From Bradyrhizobiaceae bacterium PARB1 (GTDB lineage Bacteria; Pseudomonadota; Alphaproteobacteria; Rhizobiales; Xanthobacteraceae): a stretch of 64,000 nt of DNA. The stretch is from the NCBI GenBank assembly GCA_002256345.1, contig NKIY01000006.1, positions 310,001 through 374,000 of the forward strand, in the 5' to 3' direction. Shown piece by piece: positions 12,473 to 28,100 of this stretch. Below the pieces are notes generated by a model. It was not told the origin of the DNA. It was given only the letters and a program-made list of their open reading frames with translations, and made no database searches. Within the stretch, counting starts at the first letter, position 1. Every line of letters begins with the position of its first letter. Position numbers and translations under genes: made by a program.

Positions 12473-12611
12473 GCAAGCTAGATGACGAAGCACTGCGTGG
12501 AACGCAAGTGCACCTGCAGTGCGTCTTTATGCGGCGGGTCAGTCCGTGCGATCATTCATTCAAAACGTACTCCGTGATGGTGCACGATGCAGCCGACCGT
12601 AGGATTGGGAC

Positions 12612-13586: not shown

Positions 13587-13636
13587 GCGATGTCACCGAA
13601 GCAGGCGTTGTGGAAAGATGACAAAGGAGATTGCGC

Positions 13637-13658
13637 CGCGGACCGCGTGCGGTCCGCG
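13637..13658. repeat. Perfect 10+2+10 inverted repeat upstream of the PanE-like gene
   Basis: CGCGGACCGC and GCGGTCCGCG are separated by GT, 51-72 bases before the PanE-like start. It could be a terminator for the CBS gene (no T-tract), an operator or a leader hairpin. Its function is not determined. Confidence 0.5.
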
Positions 13659-13720
13659 TTGACCTTTTGAGGCGAAGCGTTCTGGTTACTGGAGATATGT
13701 CCACTCACTGGACCATCTCC

Positions 13721-13770
13721 TGTCCCGGACGCGGCGCAGCGTGCAACGCTGCTCCGCAGAGCCGGGACAC
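13721..13770. repeat. Short copy of the TGTCCCGGACGCG...CCGGGACA intergenic palindrome
   Basis: TGTCCCGGACGCG at the left and CGCAGAGCCGGGACA at the right match parts of the 132-base element at 5271-5402. It ends just before the stop codon of the CBS gene. Confidence 0.65.
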
Positions 13771-13774
13771 GATG

Positions 13775-14206
13775 TCAGGCGACCGCCGCGTGCAGTTGCG
13801 GCGCGTCGTCTTGATCGAGCGCGCGGCTGATGTCGCGGATGCTGATCACGCCAACGAGTGTGTAGTCGTCGATGACGGGCACATGGCGGATGTGATGCCG
13901 GTTCATCAGGCGGCGCACATGTTCGAGCGTGTCGGTGGAAGAGCAGGAGATCAGCTGCTGCACCGAGATCATCTCGGACACCTTGCGATGGACGCCGGCA
14001 GCGCCGTGTTCGGCGATGGCGCGCACGACGTCGCGCTCGGAGAACATGCCGACGGCGGTGTTACCTTCGGTGCGGCACACATCCTTCACCACCAGAGCGC
14101 TGATATTCGCGGTGCGGAGCAACTGGGCGGCGATGGCGACGGTCTCATTCATCCGGACCGTGGCGATGCGGGTGCTCTTACGACGCAGAACGTCTCCGAC
14201 TTGCAT
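13775..14206 (-). CDS. CBS-domain protein, member of the oxalate regulon
   Basis: 143 residues from the ATG at 14206, behind GGGAGG. It is nearly all one CBS pair: first repeat about 1-68 (RIATVRMNETVAIAAQLLRTANISALVV ... GMFSERDVVRAIAEHG), second about 75-135 (DTLEHVRRLMNRHHIRHVPVIDD ... GVISIRDISRAL). Such stand-alone CBS pairs bind adenosine nucleotides and modulate partner enzymes. An oxalate-type operator lies 62 bases upstream of its start, so it is probably induced together with oxalate genes. Its partner is unknown; a CoA-using or transport protein of the island is conceivable. Confidence 0.88.
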   Translation of the reverse strand: MQVGDVLRRKSTRIATVRMNETVAIAAQLLRTANISALVVKDVCRTEGNTAVGMFSERDVVRAIAEHGAAGVHRKVSEMISVQQLISCSSTDTLEHVRRLMNRHHIRHVPVIDDYTLVGVISIRDISRALDQDDAPQLHAAVA

Positions 14207-14267
14207 GGCAACCTCCCTCGATTTTCCCTTGGCTGATCGGCTCAGGTCGATCTCGCAGGATGAATGT

Positions 14268-14284
14268 TGGTATATGGTATGCCA
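14268..14284 (-). promoter_or_regulatory. Oxalate-regulon operator a (TGGTAT-N5-ATGCCA)
   Basis: TGGTATATGGTATGCCA lies 62 bases before the CBS gene start. Arms TGGTAT/ATGCCA are complementary apart from one T/G-type mismatch. It shares its layout with the sites at 15937, 17437, 21045, 21425, 25589 and 25670. The 327-base gap 14207-14533 holds this site, a palindrome at 14402 and the oxlT terminator, and no gene. Confidence 0.75.
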
Positions 14285-14401
14285 GTTGTCAACGCGTGAT
14301 ATCGGGAAGTGCAACTAAAATCTGCAGAAGGGACAGTATTGCTGCCATTTCCAGCGATTCCGCCATGCGTTGCGGGCATCACGAGATTTCGTAGAGCATT
14401 A

Positions 14402-14415
14402 TCTGGCATGCCAGA
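14402..14415. promoter_or_regulatory. Perfect palindrome TCTGGCATGCCAGA, possible relic operator
   Basis: The left 12 bases, TGGCATGCCAGA from 14404, equal those of the operator at 25589, but the right arm ATGCCA is lost (AGCATT). It lies about 200 bases upstream of the CBS gene start. It may be a weak or decayed binding site. Confidence 0.35.
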
Positions 14416-14472
14416 GCATTTTTTTGGCGCCTCTGTGCTGCCTCTGGCTTGCCGCAAGGATGCCGCACGAAA

Positions 14473-14502
14473 AATGCGCTCATCCTTCCGAATGAGCGCA
14501 TT
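14473..14502 (-). terminator. Intrinsic terminator of the first oxlT gene
   Basis: AATGCGCTCAT (14473-14483) and ATGAGCGCATT (14492-14502) form a perfect 11-base stem with an 8-base loop. On the minus strand it is followed by a short T run. It lies 32 bases after the stop codon of the antiporter gene. Confidence 0.8.
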
Positions 14503-14533
14503 CACGCGTCGCAATCAGGTACCTTGATCAGGA

Positions 14534-15850
14534 TCAGGCGACTTTGGCGCCCTGGGTCGAGGCCTGTGCTGCAACTGGCTCGGTGCCGAGAATGAACGCC
14601 CTCCGCATCGGTTTGATCACAAACAGCGCCAGCAGCGCCGCTGTGGCGTTGAGCGCAACGGCGATGACGAAGACGGACTTCCAGCCATAGGTTGCCGCGA
14701 TCACGCTGGCGAGGGGCACCAGCAGCGAAGCCGTGCCCTTTGCCGTGTAGAGCATGCCGTTATTCGTCGCTGCGAATTTCGCTCCGAATGTATCGCCGCA
14801 GGTGGCCGGGAAGAGACTATAGATCTCGCCGAACACGCCGAAGTAAACTGCTGTTGCGAGTACGAAGACGAGCGGGTTATGGCCATAGGCCGACAGTGTC
14901 AGCAGCATGAGCGCTGCCGTGCCGAAGGCGATGAACATGGTGGGCTCGCGGCCGATCGTGTCCGAGATCCAGCCGAAGATGGGACGTCCGAAGCCGTCGA
15001 AGATGCGATCCAGCGAGATCGCAAAAGTGAGGGCGGCCATCTGGAAGCCGGCGAGGCTCACTGGCGTGTCGGCGATCTTGAAATCATGCGCGATGGGGGC
15101 GATCTGCGCCGCAGTCATCAGACCGCCGGCGGCGACCATTACGAAGACCAGATACATCACCCAGAAGATCGGGCTGCGCAGAACCTGCGGAGGCGTGAAA
15201 TCGATTCTGGTCTGCGGCAGATTGAGCTGCTTTCTGCGCATCGGCATGACCTGCGACGGCGGACGCATGAACAGCGCGAGCAGGACGACGATGACGCCCT
15301 GGCCGATGCCGAAATTGAAGAAGGCGGTCTGATAGCCGCTCTCCGCGATGACATGCGCGATGGGCACCACGGTCAATGCCGCACCTGCGCCGAAGCCGGC
15401 AGCGGTGGCACCGGCGGCGAGGCCGCGGCGGTCAGGAAACCACTTGAGGGCATTGCCGACGCATGTGCCATAGACTGCACCCGCGCCGATGCCGCCGATC
15501 ACGGCGCCGACGTAAAGCATCGCGAGTGTATCGGCATAGGAGTTGAGCACCCACGCAATGCTGATCATGACGCCGCCGAACATGATGACGATGCGCGGGC
15601 CGTATTTGTCGACGAACCATGCCTCGACCGGAACGAGCCAGGTTTCGATGAGCACGAACAGCGTGAACGCAAACTGGATCGAGGCGCGGCCCCAGTGATG
15701 CTTGGCGTCGATGGGATCGACGAACAGCGTCCAGCCATATTGAAGATTGGCGATCATCGCCATGCAGACGATGCCCATGGCCAGTTGGATCCAGCGGAAG
15801 TTGCCGGATGGCGAGGCGGGGTTCTGCGCGGAGTCAGTTTGCGAAATCAT
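14534..15850 (-). CDS. oxlT: OxlT-family oxalate/formate antiporter (copy 1)
   Basis: 438 residues from the ATG at 15850, behind GGGAGG. A 12-helix major facilitator of the OxlT group, expected to exchange external oxalate for internal formate in the inner membrane. The family block WGRASIQFAFTLFVLIETWLVPVEAWFVDKYGPR is present in split form, followed by AGATAAGFGAGAALTVVPI. In helix 11 YTAKGTA carries Lys371, which by alignment corresponds to Lys355, the oxalate-binding residue of Oxalobacter OxlT. It is similar to the next antiporter along its whole length. The shared operator lies 87 bases upstream and the gene is a single-gene unit. Confidence 0.9.
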   Translation of the reverse strand: MISQTDSAQNPASPSGNFRWIQLAMGIVCMAMIANLQYGWTLFVDPIDAKHHWGRASIQFAFTLFVLIETWLVPVEAWFVDKYGPRIVIMFGGVMISIAWVLNSYADTLAMLYVGAVIGGIGAGAVYGTCVGNALKWFPDRRGLAAGATAAGFGAGAALTVVPIAHVIAESGYQTAFFNFGIGQGVIVVLLALFMRPPSQVMPMRRKQLNLPQTRIDFTPPQVLRSPIFWVMYLVFVMVAAGGLMTAAQIAPIAHDFKIADTPVSLAGFQMAALTFAISLDRIFDGFGRPIFGWISDTIGREPTMFIAFGTAALMLLTLSAYGHNPLVFVLATAVYFGVFGEIYSLFPATCGDTFGAKFAATNNGMLYTAKGTASLLVPLASVIAATYGWKSVFVIAVALNATAALLALFVIKPMRRAFILGTEPVAAQASTQGAKVA

Positions 15851-15936
15851 CGGACCTCCCAATGTGCGCTGTTGCTCTCCTTCCGCGACGGGCTGTCGCA
15901 GGTGTGTGGCTTATTGCCGCAAGCGCAGGTGGAGGC

Positions 15937-15953
15937 TGGTATATTAAATGCCA
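15937..15953 (-). promoter_or_regulatory. Oxalate-regulon operator b
   Basis: TGGTATATTAAATGCCA, 87 bases before the first antiporter start. It has the same TGGTAT-N5-ATGCCA layout as the other sites of the island. Confidence 0.75.
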
Positions 15954-16038
15954 TCACGCAACACGGAACTTGGCCGATCACGCGGATTTTGTTGCTGCGC
16001 TGCAGCGCTTGTCGGCGCTTTTGATGCCGACAAACGAA

Positions 16039-16064
16039 AACGCGCCCGGCGAACCGGGCGCGTT
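16039..16064 (-). terminator. Intrinsic terminator of the second oxlT gene
   Basis: AACGCGCCCGG (16039-16049) and CCGGGCGCGTT (16054-16064) pair perfectly around CGAA. On the minus strand TTTTCGTTTG follows. It separates the two antiporter genes. Confidence 0.85.
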
Positions 16065-16092
16065 GGATCAGTGCAAGTTGGAAGGTGATTGA

Positions 16093-17382
16093 CTAGGAAG
16101 CCATCGCCTTGCTCACCACCACCTTGCGCCAGGGCTTGAGCACTGCGATCGCCAGCACCGACGCCAGGATGTTGGCGCCGGCGGCGATCAGGAAGACGCT
16201 GTCCCAATTGCCGGAGCCCTGCTGCATGTAGTTCGCGACAGGGACCAGCAGCGCGGCCGTGCCCTTGGCCGTGTAGAGCAGGCCGGCATTGGTTGTCGCA
16301 AATTTCGAGCCGAAGGTGTCGGTGCAGGTCGAGGGAAAGAGCGAGTAGATCTCACCCCAGGCAAAGAACACGAAGCCCGAGAGCAGCACGAACCACAGCG
16401 GATCCTGGCCCCACATATACAGCGCCCAGATGCCGAGGCCTTCCATGCCGAAGGCGATGAACATCGTGTTTTCGCGGCCGATCATGTCGGAGATCCAGCC
16501 GAAGAACGGACGCGTCAGGCCGTTGAGCACGCGGTCGATGGTGGCGGCGAAGGTGACGGCCGTCATCGTGACAGCCATCAGCGTGACGGGGACGTTGTCG
16601 ATCTTCCAGTCGGCGGCGATGGGCTTGAGGTTTGCCGTCACCATCAGGCCGCCGGCGCCGACGATCACGAACATGAAATACATCAGCCAGAAAATCGGAT
16701 GGCGGATGACTTCGGTTGGCGTGTAGTTGCGGCGGGTCTGGATGATGTTGGCATTCGCCACCACGCTCGGCACCTGACCGGCCTTCGGCGCGAACAGGAA
16801 GAAGGCGAGGATCACGATGATGATGCCCTGGCCGAGACCGAAATAGAGGAAGGTGGTCTGGAAGCCGGAATCCTGGATCATCGCCTGGATGGGCGCCACG
16901 GTGAGCGCAGAGCCTGCACCGAAGCCGGCCGCCGTGATGCCTGCGGCGAGGCCGCGCTTGTCGGGAAACCACTTCAGCGCATTGCCGACGCAGGTGCCGT
17001 AGACGCCGCCAGCGCCGATGCCCGCGATGATCATGCCGAGATAGAAGCCGTTGAGCGTCTCCGCTTGCGCATTGATGGCCCAGCCGACAGCGCAAAGGAC
17101 ACCGCCGACGAGCACGACGATCTTCGGGCCGTATTTGTCCACGAACCAGCCCTCGACCGGCACGAGCCAGGTCTCGAACAGCACGAAGAGCGTGAAGGCC
17201 CACTGGATCGAGGCGCGGTCCCAGCCGAATTTTTTCTGGATATCGGGGACGAAGAACGTCCAGCCATATTGGTAGTTGGCAATCATCACCATGGCGCCGA
17301 CGCCGATGGCCAATTGAGTCCAGCGATAGGCATCGCTGACGCGGGCGGCAGTAGGCGCCGCTCCGTGAACTGCATCAGTCAT
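16093..17382 (-). CDS. oxlT: OxlT-family oxalate/formate antiporter (copy 2)
   Basis: 429 residues; the start lies behind AGGAGGA. It is a paralogue of the upstream-coordinate antiporter, with the same family blocks: FGWDRASIQWAFTLFVLFETWLVPVEGWF in pieces, AAGFGAGSALTVAPI, EIYSLFPSTCTDTFG, and Lys373 in YTAKGTA of helix 11. The conserved lysine supports carboxylate exchange. Each copy has its own operator and terminator, so they are independent units of one regulon and may differ in affinity or in substrate (oxalate/formate or another dicarboxylate). Expected location: inner membrane, 12 helices. Confidence 0.9.
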   Translation of the reverse strand: MTDAVHGAAPTAARVSDAYRWTQLAIGVGAMVMIANYQYGWTFFVPDIQKKFGWDRASIQWAFTLFVLFETWLVPVEGWFVDKYGPKIVVLVGGVLCAVGWAINAQAETLNGFYLGMIIAGIGAGGVYGTCVGNALKWFPDKRGLAAGITAAGFGAGSALTVAPIQAMIQDSGFQTTFLYFGLGQGIIIVILAFFLFAPKAGQVPSVVANANIIQTRRNYTPTEVIRHPIFWLMYFMFVIVGAGGLMVTANLKPIAADWKIDNVPVTLMAVTMTAVTFAATIDRVLNGLTRPFFGWISDMIGRENTMFIAFGMEGLGIWALYMWGQDPLWFVLLSGFVFFAWGEIYSLFPSTCTDTFGSKFATTNAGLLYTAKGTAALLVPVANYMQQGSGNWDSVFLIAAGANILASVLAIAVLKPWRKVVVSKAMAS

Positions 17383-17436
17383 ACTTCCTCCTAATGCGCT
17401 GTTCTAGTACGTGTCCGACAGCTGCAACCGGGAGTT

Positions 17437-17453
17437 TGGTATATGATATGCCA
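17437..17453 (-). promoter_or_regulatory. Oxalate-regulon operator c
   Basis: TGGTATATGATATGCCA, 55 bases before the second antiporter start. The symmetry extends one base on each side (TTGG...CCAA). Confidence 0.78.
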
Positions 17454-17544
17454 ACTAACAAGAGAAATCTTGCCAGTTTGTCGCAGCTAGTTTCGCATAG
17501 CTGAATGTTGTGCTGCAAAAGCATCGCGCGATGTACTGATAGCA

Positions 17545-17574
17545 AAAAGCCGGCGGAAAAATCCGCCGGCTTTT
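17545..17574 (-). terminator. Terminator after tctA
   Basis: AAAAGCCGGCGGA (17545-17557) and TCCGCCGGCTTTT (17562-17574) form a perfect 13-base stem. A/T runs on both sides mean it could work in both directions. It ends the tctCBA transcript 28 bases after the tctA stop codon. Confidence 0.85.
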
Positions 17575-17601
17575 GTTTTTGAACAGTTATTCGAACTGTA
17601 G

Positions 17602-19107
17602 TTATGCTGTTGCAGTGCGAGCACGGATGCGCGTCAGGCCGTTCGAGATCACCGTCCAGAACAAAGCGATCAGGCCGAGGATCATGATTGTGCTCACCAG
17701 CGGGTTGGAGAAGAAGACGCCGAGCGAGCCCTGCGATCCCAGGAGCGACTGCCGGAAGGCTTCTTCCGCCTTGTCGCCCAGCACGATGGCAAGCACCAGC
17801 GGGGCGAGCGGGTAGTTGCACTTCTTCAGTGCGTAGCCGATCACGCCGAACACCAGCATCATCACCACGTCGAAAGTGGAGTTGTGCACGGAATAGGCGC
17901 CGATGGCACAGAGCACCAGAATCAGCGGCGCGATGATGCTGAAGGGCACGCGCAGGATCGCGGCGAAGATCGGCACGCAGGTCAGCACGATGATCAGGCC
18001 GACGAGATTGCCGAGATACATCGAGGCGATCAGGCCCCAGACGAACTCCTTCTGCTCGACAAACAGCATCGGACCGGGCTGCAGGCCCCAGATCAACAGG
18101 CCGCCGAGCAGCACGGCAGCGGTGGGCGAGCCGGGCACGCCGAGCGACAGCATCGGCAGCAGAGCCGAGGTGCCTGCGGCATGCGCGGCCGTCTCCGGCG
18201 CGATTACGCCCTCGATCTCGCCCTTGCCGAAGTTCTTGCCGTTCTTCGACACCCGCTTGGCGATGCCGTAGCTCATGAAGGAGGCCGGCGTGGCGCCTGC
18301 CGGGGTGACGCCCATCCAGCAACCGATGACGCAGGACCTGAGCGACGTCATCCAGTACTGCGGCAGGCTCATCCAGGTGCGAAGCACGACGCGCAGATCG
18401 ATCTTTGCCTTGCCACCGCGGAAGTTGAGGCCTTCTTCCATGGTCAGGAAGATTTCGCCGAGACCGAACAGGCCGATGACAGCGATCAGGAAGTCGAATC
18501 CGTTCAGCATTTCGGTGAAGCCGAAAGTGAGGCGGAGCTGGCCGGTGATGGAGTCGAGGCCAACGGCGGCGAGGGCGAATCCGATCATCATCGCCGCGAT
18601 CGTCTTGAAGGGTGGTTCCTTACTCAGTCCGACGAAACTACAGAAGGCGAGGAAATAGACCGCGAACTTCTCGGCGGGTCCAAATCGCAAGGCAAACCCC
18701 GCCACCAGCGGCGCCACCAGCGTGATCATGATCACGGCGAACAGCGCGCCAACGAAAGAGGAGGTGAATGCGGCGGTGAGAGATTCGGCAGCCTTGCCCT
18801 GCTGCGCCATCGGATAGCCGTCGAATGTGGTCGCGACCGACCATGGTTCGCCCGGTATGTTGAACAGGATCGATGTGATCGCGCCGCCGAACAACGCGCC
18901 CCAGTAGATGCAGGACAGCATGATGATGGCCGAGGTCGGCGGCATGCTGAAGGTGAGGGGGAGCAGGATCGCAACGCCATTGGCGCCGCCGAGGCCCGGT
19001 AGCACGCCGATGATAACGCCGAGCACGATGCCGAGTACCATCACCGCGATGTTGAAGGGCTGCAACGCGACGGCGAAGCCGTGAAACAGATTGACGATTT
19101 CTTCCAT
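17602..19107 (-). CDS. tctA: Tripartite tricarboxylate transporter large permease TctA
   Basis: 501 residues with about 12 membrane helices. TctA family marks are VLGIVLGVIIGVLPGLGGANG near the N-terminus, GAITSILFNIPGEP, and AHAAGTSALLPMLSLGVPGSPTAAVLLGGL in the second half; the two glycine/proline loops line the substrate path. It forms the channel of a solute-binding-protein-dependent secondary transporter, working with TctB and the periplasmic TctC. It is the last gene of tctC-tctB-tctA. Its place between oxlT and frc points to uptake of oxalate or a related dicarboxylate or tricarboxylate (inference). Confidence 0.9.
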   Translation of the reverse strand: MEEIVNLFHGFAVALQPFNIAVMVLGIVLGVIIGVLPGLGGANGVAILLPLTFSMPPTSAIIMLSCIYWGALFGGAITSILFNIPGEPWSVATTFDGYPMAQQGKAAESLTAAFTSSFVGALFAVIMITLVAPLVAGFALRFGPAEKFAVYFLAFCSFVGLSKEPPFKTIAAMMIGFALAAVGLDSITGQLRLTFGFTEMLNGFDFLIAVIGLFGLGEIFLTMEEGLNFRGGKAKIDLRVVLRTWMSLPQYWMTSLRSCVIGCWMGVTPAGATPASFMSYGIAKRVSKNGKNFGKGEIEGVIAPETAAHAAGTSALLPMLSLGVPGSPTAAVLLGGLLIWGLQPGPMLFVEQKEFVWGLIASMYLGNLVGLIIVLTCVPIFAAILRVPFSIIAPLILVLCAIGAYSVHNSTFDVVMMLVFGVIGYALKKCNYPLAPLVLAIVLGDKAEEAFRQSLLGSQGSLGVFFSNPLVSTIMILGLIALFWTVISNGLTRIRARTATA

Positions 19108-19137
19108 GTCGAAATGTCCTTACGAGACGCGACGGGA

Positions 19138-19635
19138 TCAGAGGCCGAGCATGTCTTCGAGCGGTCCCTTCGGGAGCGGCACGAGGAACCAGCGTTCGAA
19201 AATGAGATAGGTGACGATCGGCATGCCGAGCGAAATCGCGGCGATGATCGGCCAGTCATATTTGCCGAGCCAGCGCATGAACCAGGCGATGAAGATCATC
19301 GAGGCCACGTAGAGGCCGATGAACGGCAGCGCGGCGACATAGATGCCGGTGGGGATGACGACGCTGAACACCTGTCCGAGTTGTCCCCATTCGGCGAATA
19401 GCGGACCGTCCTCTTCGCGCAGTGTATTGAAGAGGTTGATGAGGCTCGAGATGATGATGAAGAGGCCGATATAGAACGGGAAGAAGCCGGCCTTCGGCCC
19501 TTCAGCGCCCCAATTGATGCCAGCCTTGATACTGCCATAGACGATGAGGGCGCCGAACAGGCCGATGACGGTGGTGACGCCGGCCTCGACCGCTTTGTGC
19601 GTCGGGCCTGAATTGTGGGTGTGTTGCGTGGTCAT
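19138..19635 (-). CDS. tctB: Tripartite tricarboxylate transporter small permease TctB
   Basis: 165 residues, four predicted helices: about 15-35, 47-67, 85-105 and 120-145. The family is poorly conserved, but the GPKAGFFPFYIGLFI block after helix 1 is the recognisable TctB signature. It pairs with TctA in the inner membrane. The gene is 30 bases ahead of tctA and 88 bases after tctC, consistent with one operon. Confidence 0.85.
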   Translation of the reverse strand: MTTQHTHNSGPTHKAVEAGVTTVIGLFGALIVYGSIKAGINWGAEGPKAGFFPFYIGLFIIISSLINLFNTLREEDGPLFAEWGQLGQVFSVVIPTGIYVAALPFIGLYVASMIFIAWFMRWLGKYDWPIIAAISLGMPIVTYLIFERWFLVPLPKGPLEDMLGL

Positions 19636-19723
19636 GAGACGTCCATTTCGAACTTGCGGATCGGGCTGGGTGTGGCCGGCTCAGTGACGTGAGCCGACGC
19701 AGCACGGTGCGTCTTTCGCGAGC

Positions 19724-20734
19724 TCAGTTGCTCGCGAGGAAGCCGGCTTCCTTCATCAGCGTCTCGTGGCGCTTCTCTTCGGTGCCCACCCAGCCGGCGT
19801 AATCTCCGCCGGTCATGAAGGTCGTATTGAAGGCGCCGCTCTTCATCAGATCTTGCCATTCGGGCGTGGCGCGAATCTTCTTGAACAGCTCGACGTAATA
19901 GTCGATCTGATCCTTGGTGGCCTTCGGCGACATGAAGATGCCGCGCAGCATTACATATTCGATGTCGAGGCCTTGCGACTTGCAGGTCGGGATGTCCTTC
20001 CAGCTCTTGCCGTCGGCGACCACCTCGTCATAGGCCATGGGCTTGCTGTCGAACACGCAGAGCGGCCGCACCTTGCCGCCGCGCCATTGCGCCACGGCCT
20101 CGATCGGATTGTTCACGGTGGAGTCGACGTGCTGGCCGACGAGTTGCACGGCAACTTCGCCGCCGCCCTTATAGGGAATGTAGGTGAACTTGCTGCCGAT
20201 CGCCTTTTCCATGGCGACGGTGATGATCTGGTCTTCCTGCTTCGAGCCGGTGCCGCCCATCTTCATGCTGCCCGGAGGCGCGGCCTTCACGGCTTCGATA
20301 TATTCTTTCACTGTCTTGTAAGGCTTGTCGGCATTCACCCATAAGACGAATTCGTCGAGCGCCAGCATGGCGACCGGCGTCATGTCTTTCCAGTTGAAGG
20401 GGATGCCTGTGGCCAGCGGTGTGGTGAACAGGTTCGACAGGGTGATGATGATCTTGTGTGGATTGTTGTTCGCCGACTTCACGTCGAGAAAACCTTCGCC
20501 GCCGGCGCCGCCCGACTTGTTGATGACCACGAGGGGCTGCTTCATCAGATTGTGCTTGGTGACGATGCCCTGAATGGTGCGCGCCATCTGGTCGGCGCCG
20601 CCGCCGGTGCCGGCGGGCACGATGAATTCGACAGGCCGCGTCGGTTCCCAAGCCGCGGCAGCGGGGAGACTGACTCCCAGACCAAGAATGGTCGCCGCGG
20701 CGGCCAGCGCGAGACATGAAGCAGAGCGTTTCAT
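19724..20734 (-). CDS. tctC: Tripartite tricarboxylate transporter solute-binding protein TctC
   Basis: 336 residues behind GGGAGAG. A signal peptide ends near residue 28 (SLPAAAAWEP). The mature protein begins with the Bug/TctC strand PVEFIVPAGTGGGADQMARTI, and the loop SGGAGGEGFLDVK binds a carboxylate in this family. It continues with GTGSKQEDQI and the C-terminal GWVGTEEKRHETLMKE. It would catch an organic acid in the periplasm and hand it to TctAB. The operator 311 bases upstream ties it to the oxalate genes, although the ligand itself cannot be read from the sequence. Confidence 0.9.
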   Translation of the reverse strand: MKRSASCLALAAAATILGLGVSLPAAAAWEPTRPVEFIVPAGTGGGADQMARTIQGIVTKHNLMKQPLVVINKSGGAGGEGFLDVKSANNNPHKIIITLSNLFTTPLATGIPFNWKDMTPVAMLALDEFVLWVNADKPYKTVKEYIEAVKAAPPGSMKMGGTGSKQEDQIITVAMEKAIGSKFTYIPYKGGGEVAVQLVGQHVDSTVNNPIEAVAQWRGGKVRPLCVFDSKPMAYDEVVADGKSWKDIPTCKSQGLDIEYVMLRGIFMSPKATKDQIDYYVELFKKIRATPEWQDLMKSGAFNTTFMTGGDYAGWVGTEEKRHETLMKEAGFLASN

Positions 20735-21157
20735 TGTTTCTCTCCCATTCGTTTTGATGCGTCGGTCGTGCGCCGACTTGTCATCGTCAGTTCGTGGTGG
20801 TCAGTGCGTGGTCGGTCGTCCTTCGAGTTTCCAGGCTGCAGGTATGCGGGCATGCCCTTGCGTGCGCCACATGCGCACGTCAGACTGCCGAGCCGGACGG
20901 GCTCGCCTGCAGATTGGGTGAGTGGGTTTGGATCGCTGTGTCATAGCGCATACGGCATCGCGCGCCCCGTCAGGGGCCGCTCGGCCTTCGTCCTCCCCCG
21001 GTATGCTTTTTGTTCAAATCTCAAGCATTACCGTTTACGCAGTTTGGTATGCGATATGCCACGCGGCAAGCGATTAGAGACGTTAAAAGCCGAGCAGGCC
21101 AATATGTCGCAGGGAGCGGGAGGTCTCGCTGCAATGCAACCTAAGGGCAAAAAAAGA
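20735..21157 (-). other. Long leader / promoter region of tctCBA
   Basis: The gap between tctC and the small gene at 21234 is 499 bases. Besides operator d (21045-21061) and the small gene's terminator it holds about 310 bases of untranslated leader, much longer than in the other regulon members (40-87 bases). Within it GCCCC-GTCA-GGGGC (20964-20977) can form a hairpin. No convincing open frame with a ribosome site was found on the minus strand. Confidence 0.45.
21045..21061 (-). promoter_or_regulatory. Oxalate-regulon operator d
   Basis: TGGTATGCGATATGCCA, 311 bases before the tctC start, flanked by TT. Same arms and spacing as the other sites. Confidence 0.7.
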
Positions 21158-21177
21158 GGCCCCGGAAAACCGGGGCC
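21158..21177 (-). terminator. Terminator of the 45-residue small gene
   Basis: GGCCCCGG (21158-21165) and CCGGGGCC (21170-21177) pair around AAAA. On the minus strand the stem is followed by TCTTTTTTTG. It lies 56 bases after the small gene's stop codon and marks it as its own transcription unit. Confidence 0.85.
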
Positions 21178-21233
21178 GAGGCTCGGGAGGAACGTCGAAT
21201 GCAACGCGGATCAGGTCCGCAGAAGCCTGAAAA

Positions 21234-21371
21234 TCAGAGGCCGAAGCGCGGCAGATCGCCGTTGCGCAGCGAGATCCGGGCGCTGGCCATCAGCGCACGA
21301 TCGATCGACGCAAGGAGGCGGCCGAAGAGGCCGTTGGAGGTGGCGAGATCGAAGGAAGCGGTCTTGGACAT
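21234..21371 (-). CDS. Small conserved-looking protein (45 aa) in the oxalate regulon
   Basis: The ATG at 21371 is preceded by AAGAGGAAATACCG, a strong ribosome site. The product starts MSKTASFDLATSNGLFGRLL, has an amphipathic middle (LLASIDRALMASARISL) and ends NGDLPRFGL before TGA. There is no signal peptide or full membrane span. An operator-like site lies 54 bases upstream and a clean terminator downstream, so the gene has every element of an independent regulon member. I do not recognise the family. A small regulator or membrane-associated helper of oxalate enzymes or transporters is possible. It is short enough to be missed by automated annotation. Confidence 0.72.
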   Translation of the reverse strand: MSKTASFDLATSNGLFGRLLASIDRALMASARISLRNGDLPRFGL

Positions 21372-21424
21372 CGGTATTTCCTCTTGAGGCGCAGTCGCGC
21401 CGTGTTCTGATCTGATGTCAATTT

Positions 21425-21441
21425 ACGTATACCAGATGCCA
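21425..21441 (-). promoter_or_regulatory. Oxalate-regulon operator e (degraded left arm)
   Basis: ACGTATACCAGATGCCA: the right arm ATGCCA is intact and the left keeps GTAT. It lies 54 bases before the small gene's ATG, the same distance as operators c and f to theirs. Confidence 0.6.
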
Positions 21442-21562
21442 AGGACCATAGATTTCTTCGCATAGCAGCAAGAAAATTTTGCAGTGCGAGATGACGCGAT
21501 TTGATTTTCTTATCAAAGTTCCATTCGGCGAGCCTCGTTGCAGAGGTGATGGTCCGACGCAA

Positions 21563-21586
21563 AAAGGCCGCCCGGAGGCGACCTTT
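21563..21586 (-). terminator. Terminator after frc
   Basis: AAAGGCCGCC (21563-21572) and GGCGACCTTT (21577-21586) pair with one mismatch around CGGA; on the minus strand TTTTTGCG follows. It lies 27 bases beyond the frc stop. Confidence 0.75.
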
Positions 21587-21612
21587 CGCATAAGATCGAC
21601 TTTGGCGACCAA

Positions 21613-22890
21613 TTACTCCGCAGCCACCTTGCGCGGCGGATCGAGGGCGCCGCTGTCGTGGATTTCGGCGACCTGGTGATCGCTGAAGCCGAGCACCTGC
21701 TTGAGGATTTCGTCGGTGTGCTCACCGAGCAGCGGCGAACGCTCGACCTTGGTCGGGCTGTCCGAAAGCTTGATCGGATTGCCCACCGACAGATATTCGC
21801 CGCGCTCGGGGTGATCGACCTTGACCATCGTGCCCGTGGCGTAGAGCGACTGGTCCTCGGCGATCTCCTTCATGGAGAGGATCGGACCGCAGGGGATGTC
21901 ATCCTTGTTGAGGATGTCCATCGCCTCGAACTTGGTCTTGGTCATGGTCCATTGTTCGATGCGGGCGAAAATCTCGTTGAGACGTGGCAGGCGGACGGCC
22001 GGTTTCGAGTAGTTCGGATCGGTCTTCCAGCCGGGTTCGCCGATGACGTCGCAGATCTTCTCCCACACCGGGGCCTGGGTGATGAAATAGATATAGGCGT
22101 TCGGATCGGTCTCCCAGCCCTTGCATTTCAGGATGCGGCCCGGCTGACCGCCGCCGCTATCGTTGCCCGCGCGCGGCACGGCATCGCCGAACGGCACGCC
22201 TTCGCCGAACTGGCTGTATTCCTTGAGCGGACCATGAGCGAGGCGCTGCTGGTCACGCATTTTGACGCGCGAGAGATTCAGCACGCCGTCCTGCATCGCG
22301 GCGGTGACCTTCTGGCCCTTGCCGGTCTGCGTGCGCTGATACAGCGCGGTGACGATGCCAAGCGCGAGATGCAGGCCGGTGCCGCTGTCGCCGATCTGCG
22401 CGCCGGTGACCAGCGGCAGGCCATCGCGGAAGCCGGTGGTCGACGCGGCGCCGCCGGTGCACTGCGCGACGTTTTCATAGACCTTGCAGTCTTCATAGGG
22501 ACCGGGACCGAAACCTTTGATCGATGCGACGATCATCTTCGGGTTGATCTCCTGGATCTTCTCGAACGGGAAGCCCATGCGGTCGAGCACACCCGGCCCG
22601 AAGTTCTCGACGAGAACATCGCACTGCTTCATCAGTGCGGTGAGGACTTCCTTGCCCTTCGGGTTCTTGGTGTCGAGGGTGATGGAGCGCTTGTTGTGGT
22701 TGAGCATGGTGAAATACAGGCTGTCCACATTCGGGATGTCCTGCAACTGGCCGCGGGTGATGTCGCCGACGCCGGGGCGCTCGACCTTGATCACGTCGGC
22801 GCCGAACCAGGCGAGAAGCTGCGTGCAGGTCGGGCCCGATTGCACGTGGGTGAAGTCGAGAATGCGAACGCCTTTAAGCGCCTGTGTCAT
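21613..22890 (-). CDS. frc: Formyl-CoA:oxalate CoA-transferase
   Basis: 425 residues, the usual length for Frc. This class III CoA-transferase moves CoA from formyl-CoA to oxalate, giving formate and oxalyl-CoA. Near-identity to the E. coli YfdW/Oxalobacter Frc pattern is visible: [25 protein letters not shown] in pieces, [10 protein letters not shown] with Asp168 (the catalytic aspartate that forms the acyl anhydride), [19 protein letters not shown], and [24 protein letters not shown] with the mobile glycine loop. It follows oxc by 94 bases on the same strand, as last gene of gntR-oxc-frc. It acts in the cytoplasm. Confidence 0.96.
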
Positions 22891-22954
22891 TGCTATGCTC
22901 CCGTACTATTTTTTGCCGGCTCGGCACTTGGAGATTGATACTTGAAGAAAATGA

Positions 22955-22974
22955 GCGGGGCCTCGCGACCCCGC
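22955..22974 (-). terminator. Hairpin between oxc and frc (weak terminator or processing site)
   Basis: GCGGGG (22955-22960) and CCCCGC (22969-22974) flank CCTCGCGA; on the minus strand TCATTTTCTT follows. It lies in the 94-base gap and could partly end transcription or set the oxc:frc ratio. Confidence 0.45.
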
Positions 22975-22984
22975 ATGATGCGAA

Positions 22985-24715
22985 TTACTTCTTCTTGCTC
23001 AGCACGCTCTGCGGATTGAGGTTGCCGATGCGGCCGGACTCGCTGCCCGCGGCCGGATCGATCACCGCATTGATGAGCGTCGGCTTGCCCGAATCCATCG
23101 CTTCGTTGACGGCGCGCTTGAGCTCATCCGGCGAAGTGGCGTTGACGCCGACGCCGCCAAAAGCTTGCATCATCATGTCGTAGCGCGAACCCTTGACGAA
23201 GACGGTGGGGGCGACGTCCGGGCCACCGGTCGGATTGACGTCGGTACCGCGATAGATGCCGTCATTGTTGAACACGACGATGCAGACCGGCAGATTGTAA
23301 CGGCAGATGGTCTCGACCTCCATGCCGCTGAAGCCGAAGGCGCTGTCGCCCTCGATGGCCAGCACCGGCTTGCCGGTCTCCACAGCGGCGGCGATGCAAT
23401 AGCCCATGCCGATGCCCATGATGCCCCAGGTGCCGACATCGATGCGCTTGCGCGGCTTGTACATGTCAACGATGCCGCGGGCGAGATCGAGCGTGTTGGC
23501 GCCTTCGTTGACGAGCATTGCGTCGGGGCGCTCGGCAATGATGGTGCGGAGAACGCCCAGCGCGCCGTGGTAATCCATCGGCGAGTTGTTGTTCATCAGC
23601 TTCGGCGCCATCTTCGCAACGTTCTCGTCGCGCTTCTTGGTGACGGCCGAGGTCCAGTCGCTCGATGCTTTCGTCCAGCTCTTGCCCATGCCATCGAGCA
23701 AGGCGGCGACGCAGGAGCCGATATCGCCCACGACAGGAGCGACGATCTCGACGTTGGAATCCATTTCCTTCGGCTCGATGTCGATCTGGATGAATTTCTT
23801 TGGTGCATCGCCCCAGGCTTTGCCCTTGCCGTGGGACAGCAGCCAGTTGAGGCGCGCGCCGATCAACATGACGACGTCGCTATCCTTGAGCACGGTGGAG
23901 CGCGCAGCGCCGGCGCACTGCGGATGAGTGTCGGGCAGCAGTCCCTTGGCCATGCTCATGGGCAGGAAGGGGACGCCGGAGGTCTCAACAAGAGCCTTCA
24001 CGGCGTCGTCGGCCTGCGCGTAGGCGGCGCCCTTGCCGAGAATGATCAGCGGCTTCTTCGCCGACTTCAGCACGTCGAGCGCGCGCTTGATGCTGTCCGG
24101 AGCAGGGAGCTGGGCCGGTGCAGCGTCGATCACCTTCACCAGCGACTTGCGGCCGGCGTCGGCATTCATCACCTGGCCGAACAGCTTTGCCGGCAGATCG
24201 AGATAGACGCCGCCGGGACGGCCGGACACCGCCGAGCGAATGGCACGGGCGAGGCCGATGCCGATGTCCTGCGCATGCAGCACGCGATAGGCGGCCTTGC
24301 AGAGCGGCTTGGCGATGGCGAGCTGGTCCATCTCCTCATAGTCACCCTGTTGCAGATCGACGATCTCGCGCTCCGAAGAGCCTGAGATCAGGATCATCGG
24401 GAAGCAGTTGGTGGTGGCATGGGCGAGGGCGGTGAGGCCGTTGAGGAAGCCCGGCGCCGAGACGGTGAGACACACGCCCGGCTTCTTGGTGAGATAGCCG
24501 GCAATCGACGCGGCATAGCCCGCGGCCTGTTCGTGACGGAAGGAGAGAACGCGGATGCCTTCAGCCTGCGCCATGCGGCCGAAATCGGTGATCGGAATGC
24601 CGGGCACGCCATAGATGGTGTTGAGCCCGTTCAGCTTGAGTGCATCGATGATCAGATGGAAGCCATCTGTCAGTTCTTGTTCGGTACCGGTGTCGATGCT
24701 GTGAACTGCGGACAT
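22985..24715 (-). CDS. oxc: Oxalyl-CoA decarboxylase
   Basis: 576 residues, close to the 568 of Oxalobacter Oxc. A thiamine-diphosphate enzyme that converts oxalyl-CoA to formyl-CoA and CO2, completing the cycle with Frc. The N-terminal Pyr domain has [17 protein letters not shown] and [11 protein letters not shown] with the cofactor-activating Glu62. The middle domain, which in this family binds an ADP-like activator, is present. The C-terminal PP domain has [19 protein letters not shown]...NN, the Mg/ThDP motif, and [11 protein letters not shown]. Consuming a proton per turn, the cycle also supports proton-motive force through oxalate/formate exchange. It lies 89 bases after gntR on the same strand. 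Confidence 0.96.
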
Positions 24716-24804
24716 TCCGCTCTCCCGTGACGTTTCTGAACGCGTATGGTTGTTGGTGGAAGCCGCGCGGCAGGCCGCGCGACGGCGTTGGGTAAAATCA
24801 GGTT

Positions 24805-25536
24805 CTAGGTAAAGAGCTCCTGGCCGTGCGCCTCGACATAGGACGCGAGACCGAGCGTGTGATCGCGCGCACGCTTTTCGGCCAGCTCGGTGTCGCGCTC
24901 TTCGAGTGCTTCGATGATGGCGAGATGCTCGGGCAGGGAGGTCGCGGTGCGATCGACCCGGCCGATGGTGAGCTGACGATAGCCACGCACATGCAGCAGG
25001 ATGTCGTTGGTCATGTCGATCAGCACCGGACTTTCGCTGAGCGAGAGCACGGCCTGGTGAAAGGCGATGTTCGCCTTTGAATATTCCTCGACGTGATCCT
25101 GCGGCAGGCGATCCTTGCCAAAATCCTTGAAGAAGTCGCGCAGCGCCGAGATGTCTTTCTTGCGCGCAGTCGTCGTGATCAAACGTGCGGCCATGCTTTC
25201 CAGCGCCGCCCAGGCGCGGATCATGTCGACGATCTCGTTCTTGGTCTTGCGCACCACGACGATGCCGCGGCGTGGCACGGTCCTCACGAAACCGTCCTGT
25301 TCCAGCATCGCGATGGCTTCGCGGATCGGTGTGCGGCTGACGCCAAGGCGCTCGGAGAGGGCGCGCTCGTCGAGCATCACCGGATCCGGTGTCGTGTAGA
25401 TGTCCATCTTAAGAATGGCTTCTTTCAAGGCTTCATAGGCCTTGGTCTTGAAGCTGGTCTCGGGTGCGATCCGAACGATCGCAAGGTCGGCCTCGGACAT
25501 AATGGACGGCGCCTTGGTTGGTTTTCGCGTGGGCAT
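24805..25536 (-). CDS. GntR-family regulator with FCD domain, probable oxalate regulator
   Basis: 243 residues. The winged helix at about 25-95 includes [51 protein letters not shown], a textbook FadR-subfamily GntR reader. The C-terminal all-helical FCD domain (about 105-230) keeps the metal-site residues seen as [11 protein letters not shown] and H-containing [13 protein letters not shown] regulators bind organic acids. FadR/FCD operators often have the core TGGT-N-ACCA, close to TGGYAT-N5-ATRCCA found here, including one copy before this gene. It is the first gene of gntR-oxc-frc and so probably autoregulated. Confidence 0.88.
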
Positions 25537-25540
25537 GAAT

Positions 25541-25558
25541 CATCTCCGGTCGGAGATG
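25541..25558 (-). promoter_or_regulatory. Hairpin over the gntR ribosome-binding site
   Basis: CATCTCCG-GT-CGGAGATG is a perfect 8-base inverted repeat ending four bases before the gntR start codon. On the mRNA the 3' arm carries the GGAG Shine-Dalgarno sequence seven bases before the AUG, so folding would hide it. It could instead be a protein-binding site. Confidence 0.5.
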
Positions 25559-25588
25559 TCGTACCACAGAAACAACGTTCGGAATTTT

Positions 25589-25605
25589 TGGCATGCCAGA
25601 TGCCA
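25589..25605 (-). promoter_or_regulatory. Oxalate-regulon operator f (perfect arms)
   Basis: TGGCATGCCAGATGCCA, arms TGGCAT/ATGCCA perfectly complementary, 53 bases before the gntR start. It lies in the gntR/synthetase divergent region; operator g is 65 bases further on. Confidence 0.8.
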
Positions 25606-25669
25606 GCATGTCAAGCTGACGGCTATTTCAGCAATTTTGCGCTGCACCGCGCCTTGACTTTCAAGTTTC

Positions 25670-25686
25670 TGGCATACCAAATGCCA
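25670..25686 (+). promoter_or_regulatory. Oxalate-regulon operator g (perfect arms)
   Basis: TGGCATACCAAATGCCA, 40 bases before the start of the acyl-CoA synthetase gene. A TTGACT hexamer at 25654-25659 could be the -35 element, which would place the operator over the -10 region, as expected for a repressor. Confidence 0.8.
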
Positions 25687-25725
25687 TCAATTCGTCCGCG
25701 TCAAGAAACGCAATGGGAGAAGGCC

Positions 25726-27888
25726 ATGTCTCAATCGAATCTCGCCATCAAAGAAGCGCCCGCCTCGGCGAAAGATGCCGTTCGCAAGGTGCTTGATGCC
25801 GTCAAGGCGGACAAGCGCACCAGCCTGACGGCGCCGGAAGGCAAGCTTGTCTGCGACGCCTATGGCATTCCCGTGCCGAAAGAGGGCGTCGCCACCTCGG
25901 CAGCAGATGCTGCGAAGCTCGCGGGTGGCATGGGCTTCCCGGTGGTGATGAAGATCGTTTCGCCGGACATTCTCCACAAGACCGAAGCCGGCGGCGTCAT
26001 TGTCGGCGTGAAGACGGCCGAAGACGCGCAGAAGGCCTACGACACCATTCTGGCCAATGCCAAGAAGTACAAGGCCGATGCCAAGATCGAGGGTGTCCAG
26101 GTTCAGCAGATGCTGATGGGCGGCACCGAAGTCATCATCGGCTCGATCACCGATGGCTCGTTCGGCAAGCTGGTGGCCTTCGGTCTTGGCGGTGTGCTGG
26201 TGGAAGTGTTGAAGGACGTCACCTTCCGCCTCGCACCCGCGACCAATGAAGACGCGCTGTCGATGCTCGACGGCATCCAGGCCGCGGAGATGCTGCATGG
26301 CGTGCGCGGCGGTGATCCCGCCAATCGCGAGGCGCTGGCAGATATCATCGTCAAGGTCTCGCAGCTCGTCAGCGATTTCCCGGAGATGGTCGAGCTCGAT
26401 CTCAATCCGGTGTTCGCCACCAAGAAGGATGCGATCGCGGCCGACGTCCGCATCGTCGTGGATTTCGATTACAAGCCGCGTCCGGCGCCGCGTGCCAAGG
26501 AAGAAATCGTTGCGGCGATGAACCGCATCATGATGCCGAAGGCCGTCGCGGTGATCGGTGCCTCTGCCGAGGACGGCAAGATCGGCAACTCGGTGATGAA
26601 GAACCTCATCAACGGTGGCTACAAGGGCGAGATCTATCCGATCCATCCGAAAGCCGACGAGATCATGGGCCGCAAGGCCTATAAGAGCGTCAAGGATGTG
26701 CCGGGCGTGATCGACACCGCGGTGTTCGCGATCCCTGCGAAATTCGTCGCTGGCGCGCTGACCGAATGCGGCGAGAAGAAAATTCCGGGCGCGGTGCTGA
26801 TCCCGTCGGGTTTTGCCGAAGCCAACGAGCCTGAGCTGCAGGAAGAGATCGTTGCCATCGGCAAGAAATACGACGTGCGCCTGATGGGGCCGAACATCTA
26901 TGGCTTCTACTATACGCCGGCCAATCTCTGCGCGACGTTCTGTACCGCCTACGACGTGAAGGGCTCGGCGGCGTTGTCGTCGCAGTCGGGCGGCATCGGC
27001 ATGGCGATCATCGGCTTCTCGCGTTCCGCCAAGATGGGCGTGTCGGCCATTGTCGGTCTCGGCAACAAGTCTGATATCGACGAGGACGATCTGCTCGCCT
27101 TCTTCGAGCAGGATCCGAACACCAACATCATCGCGCAGCATTGCGAGGATCTGAAGGACGGCCGCGCCTTTGCGGAAGCGGCCAAGCGCGTCTCCAAGAA
27201 GAAGCCGGTGGTGGTGCTCAAGGCGGGCCGTACCTCGGCTGGCGCCAAGGCTGCCTCGTCGCATACCGGCGCGCTCGCCGGCAACGACAAGATCTATGAG
27301 GATGTGCTGAAGCAGTCCGGCGTGATCCGCGCCCGCTCGCTGCGGCAGTTGCTCGAATTCGCTCGCGGCATTCCGGTGCTGCCGACGCCGAAGGGCGAGA
27401 ACGTGCTGATCATCACCGGTGCCGGTGGGTCGGGTGTGCTGCTGTCGGACGCGGTGGTGGATAACGGCCTGTCGCTGATGGCGATGCCGCCGGATCTCGA
27501 TGCGGCCTTCCGCAAGTTCATCCCGCCCTTCGGCGCCGCCGGCAACCCGGTCGACATCACCGGTGGCGAACCGCCGATCACCTATGTGAATACGGTGAAG
27601 CTCGGCCTCGAGGATGAGCGCATCCACTCGCTGATTCTTGGCTACTGGCACACGATCGTGACCCCGCCGATGGTGTTCGCCAGGAACATGGTCGAGATCA
27701 AGAACGAGATGAAGAAGAAGGGCATCGAGAAACCGATGGTCGCTTCGCTCGCCGGCGATATCGAGGTCGAGGAGGCCGCGGAGTATCTCTACCAGAACGG
27801 CATTCCGGCCTATGCCTATTCGACGGAGCTTCCGGTGGAAGTGCTCGGCGCCAAGTACAAGTGGGCGCGTGGGGCAGGGCTGCTGTAA
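25726..27888 (+). CDS. NDP-forming acyl-CoA synthetase (acetate-CoA ligase family), oxalate regulon member
   Basis: 720 residues from the ATG at 25726 behind GGGAGAAGG. Domain order is ATP-grasp first (about 30-245; MKIVSPDILHKTEAGGV, ELDLNPVF), then the CoA-binding domain (about 268-400; AVAVIGASAEDGKIGNSV, MGPNIYGF), then the succinyl-CoA-ligase-like part with SSHTGALAG holding His513, the expected phosphohistidine. The reaction would be acid + CoA + ATP = acyl-CoA + ADP + Pi, reversible. The gene starts next to operator g and diverges from gntR-oxc-frc. It could prime the Frc cycle by making formyl-CoA or oxalyl-CoA, or recover ATP from formyl-CoA. The substrate is inferred from context only. 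Confidence 0.88.
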   Translation: MSQSNLAIKEAPASAKDAVRKVLDAVKADKRTSLTAPEGKLVCDAYGIPVPKEGVATSAADAAKLAGGMGFPVVMKIVSPDILHKTEAGGVIVGVKTAEDAQKAYDTILANAKKYKADAKIEGVQVQQMLMGGTEVIIGSITDGSFGKLVAFGLGGVLVEVLKDVTFRLAPATNEDALSMLDGIQAAEMLHGVRGGDPANREALADIIVKVSQLVSDFPEMVELDLNPVFATKKDAIAADVRIVVDFDYKPRPAPRAKEEIVAAMNRIMMPKAVAVIGASAEDGKIGNSVMKNLINGGYKGEIYPIHPKADEIMGRKAYKSVKDVPGVIDTAVFAIPAKFVAGALTECGEKKIPGAVLIPSGFAEANEPELQEEIVAIGKKYDVRLMGPNIYGFYYTPANLCATFCTAYDVKGSAALSSQSGGIGMAIIGFSRSAKMGVSAIVGLGNKSDIDEDDLLAFFEQDPNTNIIAQHCEDLKDGRAFAEAAKRVSKKKPVVVLKAGRTSAGAKAASSHTGALAGNDKIYEDVLKQSGVIRARSLRQLLEFARGIPVLPTPKGENVLIITGAGGSGVLLSDAVVDNGLSLMAMPPDLDAAFRKFIPPFGAAGNPVDITGGEPPITYVNTVKLGLEDERIHSLILGYWHTIVTPPMVFARNMVEIKNEMKKKGIEKPMVASLAGDIEVEEAAEYLYQNGIPAYAYSTELPVEVLGAKYKWARGAGLL

Positions 27889-27914
27889 GGCTCGCTCGTT
27901 AGCGATCAAAAAGA

Positions 27915-28095: not shown

Positions 28096-28100
28096 AGGGC

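Follow-up and report, generated by a model that had tools for sequence, protein, structure and literature searches.

TGGYAT half-site operators mark an oxalate-utilisation regulon that is very probably read by an FCD-type GntR protein

Introduction

Plants and soils are rich in oxalate. The window analysed here, a stretch of 64,000 nucleotides from Bradyrhizobiaceae bacterium PARB1 (contig NKIY01000006.1, positions 310,001-374,000 of the forward strand), carries an oxalate catabolic cluster in which the genes for oxalyl-CoA decarboxylase (oxc), formyl-CoA:oxalate CoA-transferase (frc) and the oxalate/formate antiporter (oxlT) all score above curated cut-offs. An inverted repeat of 17 base pairs (bp) recurs among these genes, as does the question of what it is for: which protein reads it, which genes it marks, and whether binding turns them off or on. 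Our answer, in which we have good confidence and which draws on comparison of sequences, is that the repeats would be operators of the FCD-type GntR protein encoded in the cluster (24805-25536), that they belong to a dispersed oxalate-utilisation regulon, and that repression of this regulon would be lifted by an oxalate-derived effector.

Results

Operators in the window, the genome and 80 related loci

The original prediction named seven copies of TGGYAT-N5-ATGCCA, and all seven positions were confirmed. Six copies (14268, 15937, 17437, 21045, 25589 and 25670) are exact and fall within 11.4 kb; the copy at 21425 has two mismatches to the 17-mer. The perfect arms claimed for the two copies beside gntR are present. 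Distances to the start codon had been put at 40-87 bases except at tctC; they measure 61 bp for the CBS gene, 86 for oxlT1, 54 for oxlT2, 53 for a small gene, 52 for gntR and 39 for acs (hence 39-86) and 310 for tctC, so the earlier figures were right within one base. The putative operators are as follows.

14268..14284, minus strand: operator of the CBS gene; exact match; found in 24 relatives, mostly some 30-48 bp ahead of CBS
15937..15953, minus strand: operator of oxlT1, inverted repeat; exact match; found in 6 relatives
17437..17453, minus strand: operator of oxlT2, inverted repeat; exact match; found in 25 relatives, about 52 bp before oxlT2
21045..21061, minus strand: tctCBA operator, exact match; the start of tctC is 310 bp away, a distance of about 300 bp in 22 relatives
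21425..21441, minus strand: small-gene operator in the form of a direct repeat, TGGCAT-C-TGGTAT-ACGT; two mismatches to the 17-mer; 41 of 41 relatives
25589..25605, minus strand: operator of gntR-oxc-frc, TGGCATCTGGCATGCCA, three half-sites; TTGACA 3 bp upstream; kept in 80 of 80 loci
25670..25686, plus strand: acs operator, TGGCATACCAAATGCCA, three half-sites; lies 81 bp from that of gntR, with the same spacing in 73 of 80 loci

With up to two mismatches allowed on both strands, the window holds 29 matches compared with 8.7 +/- 3.7 in shuffled sequence, and none of 100 shuffles reached 29. The whole assembly (6,953,485 bases) was scanned with the exact symmetric pattern TGGYAT-N5-ATRCCA and with a control, the same pattern reversed without complementing. 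Eight exact sites were found and none for the control; the pattern is thus not common at random genome positions, the outcome that would have spoken against the original prediction. The window accounts for six of them. Of the remaining two, one lies 56 bp before sucC, within an mdh-sucC-sucD stretch (C11:686577; L001, L103), and one 72 bp before a class-V aminotransferase gene (C24:31544; L002, L104). At two mismatches the genome gives 785 matches and the control 317, so that loose copies are mostly background, too noisy for adding members. A 15-base direct-repeat pattern occurs at five places in the genome: three already counted, the small-gene site, and C26:1015367 (L372:1501), where TGGCATCTGGTATGCCT, a one-mismatch site found only by this pattern, lies 43 bp before the start of a second frc. 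The product of that gene has 416 amino acids and is 72% identical to the first Frc.

Relatives were compared over the best 80 of 199 confirmed loci from a GntR protein scan, mostly from Bradyrhizobium and Tardiphaga (1.497 Mb). Every one of the 80 contains the operator, with 238 exact copies of spacer 5. Other spacers between 0 and 12 yield one match (spacer 8) and none for 0-4, 6, 7 and 9-12, and the reversed pattern yields none. By nearest gene, 160 sites lie in the gntR/acs gap (two per locus), 25 at oxlT2, 24 at CBS, 22 at tctC, 6 at oxlT1, and 1 is unassigned. That 237 of the 238 precede recognised oxalate-cluster genes bears out the proposal that these operators mark an oxalate regulon. 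The small gene of 45 amino acids was found with readable upstream sequence in 41 of the 80 loci, always behind a direct-repeat operator, and its product has no Pfam match.

Arrangement of half-sites

The sites are not built alike. A third TGGYAT half overlaps one arm (TGGYAT-N-TGGYATRCCA) in 160 of 160 gntR and acs sites, and in 0 of 77 tctC, oxlT and CBS sites of the 80 loci; the window's own CBS site (TGGTATATGGTATGCCA) holds a third half-site. The small-gene site is a direct repeat, TGGYAT-N-TGGYAT, in all 41 loci, in each of which the 17-mer is imperfect. Read along transcription, the window copy at 21425 is TGGCAT-C-TGGTAT with a weak third, inverted half. Its left arm had been called degraded: the two mismatches are real, on the plus strand, but because the direct repeat recurs in 41 of 41 relatives the site is a variant form and not a decayed one. 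The assumption of a single 17-bp palindrome accordingly fails at the gntR, acs and small-gene sites, and the operator reads as a half-site grammar rather than one fixed palindrome.

There is an even chance that GntR recognises, as its binding unit, an FCD palindrome of 10 bp (TGGYATRCCA-like) with an extra half-site, the 17-bp repeat being a composite whose strength varies with the third half. The invariable third half at gntR and acs, its absence from the tctC, oxlT and CBS sites and the direct repeat at the small gene all favour this, as do the additional half-sites 7-12 nucleotides from the centre described for GntR sites in the available text of PMC4494728 and the 10-bp palindrome that Atu1419, among the best PDB matches of GntR, binds according to the available text of PMC7797058. 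The structural genes, however, keep the outer arms and not the centre, and a spacer of 5 is nearly invariant. This alternative concerns the binding unit only and is compatible with GntR acting on these operators as a repressor. The kind of site is known; the mix of arrangements in one regulon is unusual.

Promoter geometry and proposed mechanism

Oriented along transcription, 76 distinct tctC, oxlT and CBS contexts show TTG at -8 to -6 (100, 93 and 93%) and T at the fourth base past the operator (99%). The deduced layout is TTGnnn-17-nAnnnT, in which A is the last operator base. These positions place the operator so that it fills the 17-base spacer between the -35 and -10 boxes and overlaps the first two bases of the -10 box nAnnnT. 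The gntR operator begins 3 bases after TTGACA. At acs and sucC, TTGACA lies about 11 bp upstream of the operator, which would therefore fall on the -10 region. Operators within the -35/-10 spacer or just past the -35 box usually repress. Repression relieved by an oxalate-derived signal is consequently the best model, and occlusion of RNA polymerase would be the simplest reading of the operator position.

We propose that without oxalate GntR dimers would occupy TGGYAT half-sites in core promoters, either between the -35 and -10 boxes or over the -10 box. Bound GntR would block RNA polymerase, at its own gene too. Release of GntR would follow when an acid or CoA ester derived from oxalate enters the FCD pocket. 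Direct binding, repression over activation, the effector and the binding stoichiometry are what we infer here.

It is improbable, though worth keeping in view, that the same GntR serves the same regulon as an oxalate-requiring activator or dual regulator, in the manner of CitO with citrate. FCD activators do exist (CitO, in the available text of PMC4746285), and the geometry at acs and sucC, with TTGACA further upstream, would allow one. The operators of tctC, oxlT1, oxlT2 and CBS, which fill the spacer, and that of gntR, just past TTGACA, argue for repression by GntR instead.

The operator and the GntR lineage

Very probably it is the gntR product that reads the operators, judged by how the two travel together. 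Among 149 family genomes, 37 encode an orthologue (GntR at least 76% identical), and all 37 contain the exact pattern (171 sites); in the other 112 the pattern occurs in 46 (85 sites), partly in genomes with homologues of 47-58% identity. An exact operator stands directly before gntR in 36 of the 37 orthologue genomes, the place in G124 being read through L014 (same contig coordinates); in G046 the operator touches the matched gntR start. The 37th genome, G089, carries a site with one mismatch, about 101 bp upstream of the matched gntR stretch. In G028, G067, G072, G108, G129, G141 and G144 the gntR site is the sole exact site of the genome.

More distant homologues tell the same story. Upstream stretches of 600 bases, scored from -350 to +20, were taken for 59 GntR homologues of 47-58% identity (part of all found) and for the G089 orthologue. 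These 60 regions give 12 exact sites, 27 with at most one mismatch and 43 with at most two, against 0, 1 and 3 for the reversed pattern and 0, 0.1 and 1.7 for shuffled sequence; the 59 homologues without G089 give 12, 26 and 42. In some of them both operator arms have changed jointly (TGGAAT...ATTCCA), as expected for symmetric binding. The neighbourhoods of 20 of the 59 all hold oxc and/or frc-type genes (17 with an oxc of 82-88% identity, three with an frc-like gene plus oxlT and CBS genes), which ties the sampled GntR lineage to oxalate genes. In 15 of 20 homologues outside the family, the best score of a position weight matrix exceeds those from most of the 200 mononucleotide shuffles (p<=0.05), which lends the operator weak support. 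With an operator before gntR in all 80 loci, in 36 of 37 genomes and before many distant homologues, the original nomination of the encoded GntR as likely reader is upheld.

That another transcription factor reads the sites, with gntR merely one of its targets, we consider very unlikely. Operators before a regulator gene are alone no proof that its protein binds them, but here the pattern co-occurs with the GntR lineage, the gntR site is the sole exact one in site-poor genomes, the operator also precedes 47-58% homologues, and the scanned proteins of the window cluster include no DNA-binding regulator besides GntR. Chance or a dispersed repeat family can practically be dismissed, given the controls with reversed pattern, altered spacer and shuffled sequence and the genome counts. 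Exact matches do turn up now and then in genomes that lack a close orthologue (G017, G018, G071, G038), but these are mostly scattered, at background level, and in the first three mostly with a G+C-rich spacer. In G092 one of two matches lies directly before a 50% GntR homologue.

A wider, lineage-variable regulon

The gene list of the original prediction (the CBS gene, both oxlT genes, tctCBA, the small gene, gntR-oxc-frc and acs) stood but was too short: operators also mark sucC, the second frc, the aminotransferase gene and, in relatives, formate dehydrogenase genes. By its operators the regulon is larger than first listed but varies between lineages. In the window's soil bacterium the marked genes make up most of what oxalate uptake and breakdown would require. 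It would include genes of uptake (two OxlT, TctCBA) and of CoA activation and decarboxylation (FRC, a second FRC, OXC, the ADP-forming acyl-CoA synthetase and SucCD), together with the CBS gene, behind which a panE-like gene stands in some species. A glyoxylate-type aminotransferase would join it in this genus, and formate dehydrogenase and a glyoxylate-carboligase operon in other relatives.

In G025, G043, G016, G059, G087, G065, G123, G106 and G139 the cluster marked by operators includes a sucCD pair, which in the four genomes examined (G016, G025, G043, G059) represents a second copy. In G000, G026, G024, G149 and G122, from the window's genus and the genus that holds Bradyrhizobium (g25), the operator precedes the mdh-linked sucC instead. 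A distant sucCD-like pair stands behind an operator, beside an IclR-family regulator, in L196 and L203 (G106, G139); it scores at cut-off for the SucC model (370.3 of 370) and 336 of 604 for malate-CoA ligase.

The aminotransferase is a probable regulon member in this genus only; its operator also occurs in G149 and G150. Its best model is BhcA at 430.6 bits, below the cut-off of 650, so the label glyoxylate-type is a guess. The divergent neighbour of the operator-marked gene encodes a large FAD/FeS oxidase. An enoyl-CoA-hydratase gene and a second tctCBA-like set follow the aminotransferase gene (L104:7934-12137, L252:6119-8001). In another family, L271 (G210) has an oxalate cluster with a 59% GntR, an exact operator, and fdsB-fdhA and a FAD oxidase/aminotransferase pair side by side, an arrangement that supports the aminotransferase as part of the oxalate set.

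An operator away from the cluster precedes a fused NuoE/NuoF-type subunit gene (fdsB), counted here as formate dehydrogenase, in nine loci (L272, L273, L274, L275, L279, L282, L283, L286 and L287), a count that leaves out L276 and L280, where the operator is also present. L272 and L283 were called by profile scan, L286 and L287 by 85-86% identity to L272, and the other five by N-terminal sequence. The product of the next gene in L283, which is cut by the locus end, is a formate-dehydrogenase alpha-type subunit (TIGR01591 at 581.7 bits, cut-off 666), and a MoeA-like gene (418 bits, cut-off 440) is nearby. Among 18 genomes of the window's genus, two have the fused gene, both with the operator; the window's own genome has no match to it.

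In G106 an operator lies 23 bp before a glyoxylate carboligase gene (above cut-off), followed by putative hyi, glxR, a panE homologue and pyk; these are Pfam families, and the names hyi and glxR are our interpretation. In L195 and L197 (G084, G062) tandem GntR homologues, 52-56% identical to that of the window, share an oxalate cluster with gcl, hyi- and glxR-like genes, a panE-like gene and sucCD.

Genes of the window cluster

12612..13586, minus strand: panE-like reductase, ketopantoate reductase family, behind CBS; Pfam ApbA/ApbA_C, NF005089 above cut-off
13775..14206, minus strand: CBS-domain protein, 143 amino acids; Pfam CBS, two stretches
14534..15850, minus strand: oxlT1, oxalate/formate MFS antiporter; NCBIfam TIGR04259, 645 bits, cut-off 335
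16093..17382, minus strand: oxlT2, oxalate/formate MFS antiporter; NCBIfam TIGR04259, 647 bits, cut-off 335
17602..20734, minus strand: tctCBA, tripartite tricarboxylate-type transporter; Pfam TctA, TctB and TctC above cut-off
21234..21371, minus strand: small gene, 45 amino acids; no Pfam match
21613..22890, minus strand: frc, formyl-CoA:oxalate CoA-transferase; NCBIfam TIGR03253, 737 bits, cut-off 504
22985..24715, minus strand: oxc, oxalyl-CoA decarboxylase; NCBIfam TIGR03254, 1021 bits, cut-off 739
24805..25536, minus strand: gntR, FCD-type GntR regulator, 243 amino acids, the proposed reader; Pfam GntR and FCD above cut-off, comparative footprint
25726..27888, plus strand: acs, ADP-forming acyl-CoA synthetase, 720 amino acids; Pfam Ligase_CoA_2, ATP-grasp_5 and others

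OxlT1 and OxlT2 are 57% identical. TctA and TctC have no NCBIfam match at 1e-10, and the acs product reaches no NCBIfam equivalog at its cut-off. The panE-like gene may be part of the CBS transcript, and family and linkage make its product a possible oxalyl-CoA reductase. A CBS-panE pair as a general arrangement was dropped after a recount of the loci. The tctC leader (20735-21044), 310 bases from operator to start, has a similar length in 22 relatives and is poorly conserved (mean column identity 45% in 12 sequences), with a short conserved stretch near the ribosome site. A scan of 12000-29000 with Rfam gave nothing at gathering scores. Between oxlT1 and the CBS operator, at 14402-14415, lies TCTGGCATGCCAGA with a perfect 10-bp TGGCATGCCA core; on the plus strand the same stretch was picked up as a terminator-like stem as well.

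Discussion

Comparison across relatives brings out the operator, the membership of the regulon, the linkage of operator and gntR and the position relative to a conserved TTG element. Several observations weigh against the proposed GntR-repressed regulon. The geometry at acs and sucC differs from that at the transporters, and the aminotransferase and small-gene sites lack the -35/operator geometry; a strict sigma-70 scan of the region found no promoter, and the deduced -10 boxes are poor. G050 has two orthologous gntR copies, one without an exact site, the operator is missing before the gntR of G106 itself, and outside the family an exact operator precedes gntR in 1 of 20 homologues. The scanned sucC copy has the operator in 3 of 30 family loci, which makes that operator lineage-specific, and the aminotransferase gene has it in 1 of 30. 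The panE-like gene lies behind CBS in 15 of the 33 loci whose sequence continues for 600 bases or more past CBS and is for that reason only a possible member. The compared genomes are kin and fall into groups, so their counts are not independent, and the invariance of the arms is partly built in, as the pattern itself selects for them.

A broader reading is tentative, and we would not wager on it: one dedicated oxalate regulator may command both the path that leads from uptake to CO2 and the steps that follow glyoxylate. The central TCA enzyme SucCD would be under its control and so, in many relatives, would a formate dehydrogenase encoded far from the cluster on the chromosome. The response of each promoter would be set by how its TGGYAT half-sites are arranged: as a triple at gntR/acs, inverted at the transporters and direct at the small gene. 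If SucCD is a member, succinyl-CoA or a related ligase would prime oxalate activation.

The GntR protein described here is apparently an undescribed regulator. A search of the open-access literature, which is no proof of absence, found no GntR regulator joined with oxalate or oxalyl-CoA decarboxylase. Titles and opening lines of abstracts on oxalate catabolism name no such regulator, and titles retrieved with 'oxalate regulon' and like phrases are medical, none bacterial. No TGGYAT-type motif was found in GntR papers of the same literature, and the word oxalate is absent from the main text of the GntR motif survey PMC4494728. In B. diazoefficiens, Frc and Oxc were higher on arabinose than on mannitol in a cytoplasm-enriched fraction (PMC5996035), a difference that tells nothing about the regulator. 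If our proposal is true, oxalotrophy in Bradyrhizobium, Tardiphaga and their relatives gains a regulator, an operator and a list of genes, along with a candidate part for an oxalate biosensor and candidate pathway genes in acs, CBS, the panE-like gene, sucCD and the 45-amino-acid gene.

The pathway has a counterpart in Methylobacterium extorquens, which reportedly assimilates oxalate by reduction of oxalyl-CoA (Schneider 2012); the enzyme there is PanE2. A PanE-family reductase likewise belongs to the oxalate gene set of some species here; in contrast, the activity of the window's panE-like product is predicted and its linkage variable.

The regulator itself has an N-terminal winged helix-turn-helix domain (PF00392, 47.3 bits, cut-off 27) and a C-terminal FCD domain (PF07729, 78.6 bits, cut-off 24.3). 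It misses every named NCBIfam model: NanR (61.9 of 260), LldR (39.2 of 311), GlcC (34.1 of 301) and PdhR (24.8 of 330), and is thus none of these. H160, H204 and H226 align with histidines in four PDB chains, with Asn where some chains have Asp; these positions may be the His triad of the FCD metal site. The third-best PDB match by sequence is 6z74, presumably Atu1419 of Agrobacterium fabrum. Atu1419 shares the three aligned FCD histidines, palindromes placed between the -35 and -10 boxes or over the -10 box, and two sites around its own promoter, and its core ATGTATAC also occurs inside the common CBS operator TGGCATTATGTATACCA (available text of PMC7797058). It differs in recognising a 10-bp palindrome, ATGTATACAT, in serving a hydroxycinnamate pathway, and in looping as a tetramer over 190 bp, compared with 81 bp between the two gntR/acs sites (PMC7797058).

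LldR, GlcC, PdhR and FadR have the same combination of GntR helix-turn-helix and FCD domains, with a published operator consensus of TKGT/ACMA that the TGG/CCA boxes here resemble; in the available text of PMC4494728, regulators of the FadR/FCD type also have an operator beside their own gene and a catabolic regulon for a small carboxylic acid. The operators here fit such boxes, with TGGT.../...ACCA in part of the sites and TGGC in others. Published FadR/FCD sites form one palindrome with a GT-AC distance of 2-3 nucleotides (PMC4494728), whereas the TGGYAT halves here also form a 17-bp inverted repeat with N5 and a direct repeat of 7-bp period. Control of frc and oxc homologues, along with an EvgA-regulated formate-dehydrogenase homologue, ydeP, is seen in the E. 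coli yfdXWUVE/EvgA system, but EvgA is an acid-stress response regulator and not a GntR protein (available text of PMC3720670). A likeness in operator design is offered by E. coli NanR, a GntR repressor on repeated GGTATA units that parallel the TGGYAT direct repeats of one promoter class here; NanR uses three direct repeats in response to sialic acid (available text of PMC8012715), whereas inverted, direct and mixed forms of the half-site occur within a single regulon in the oxalate system.

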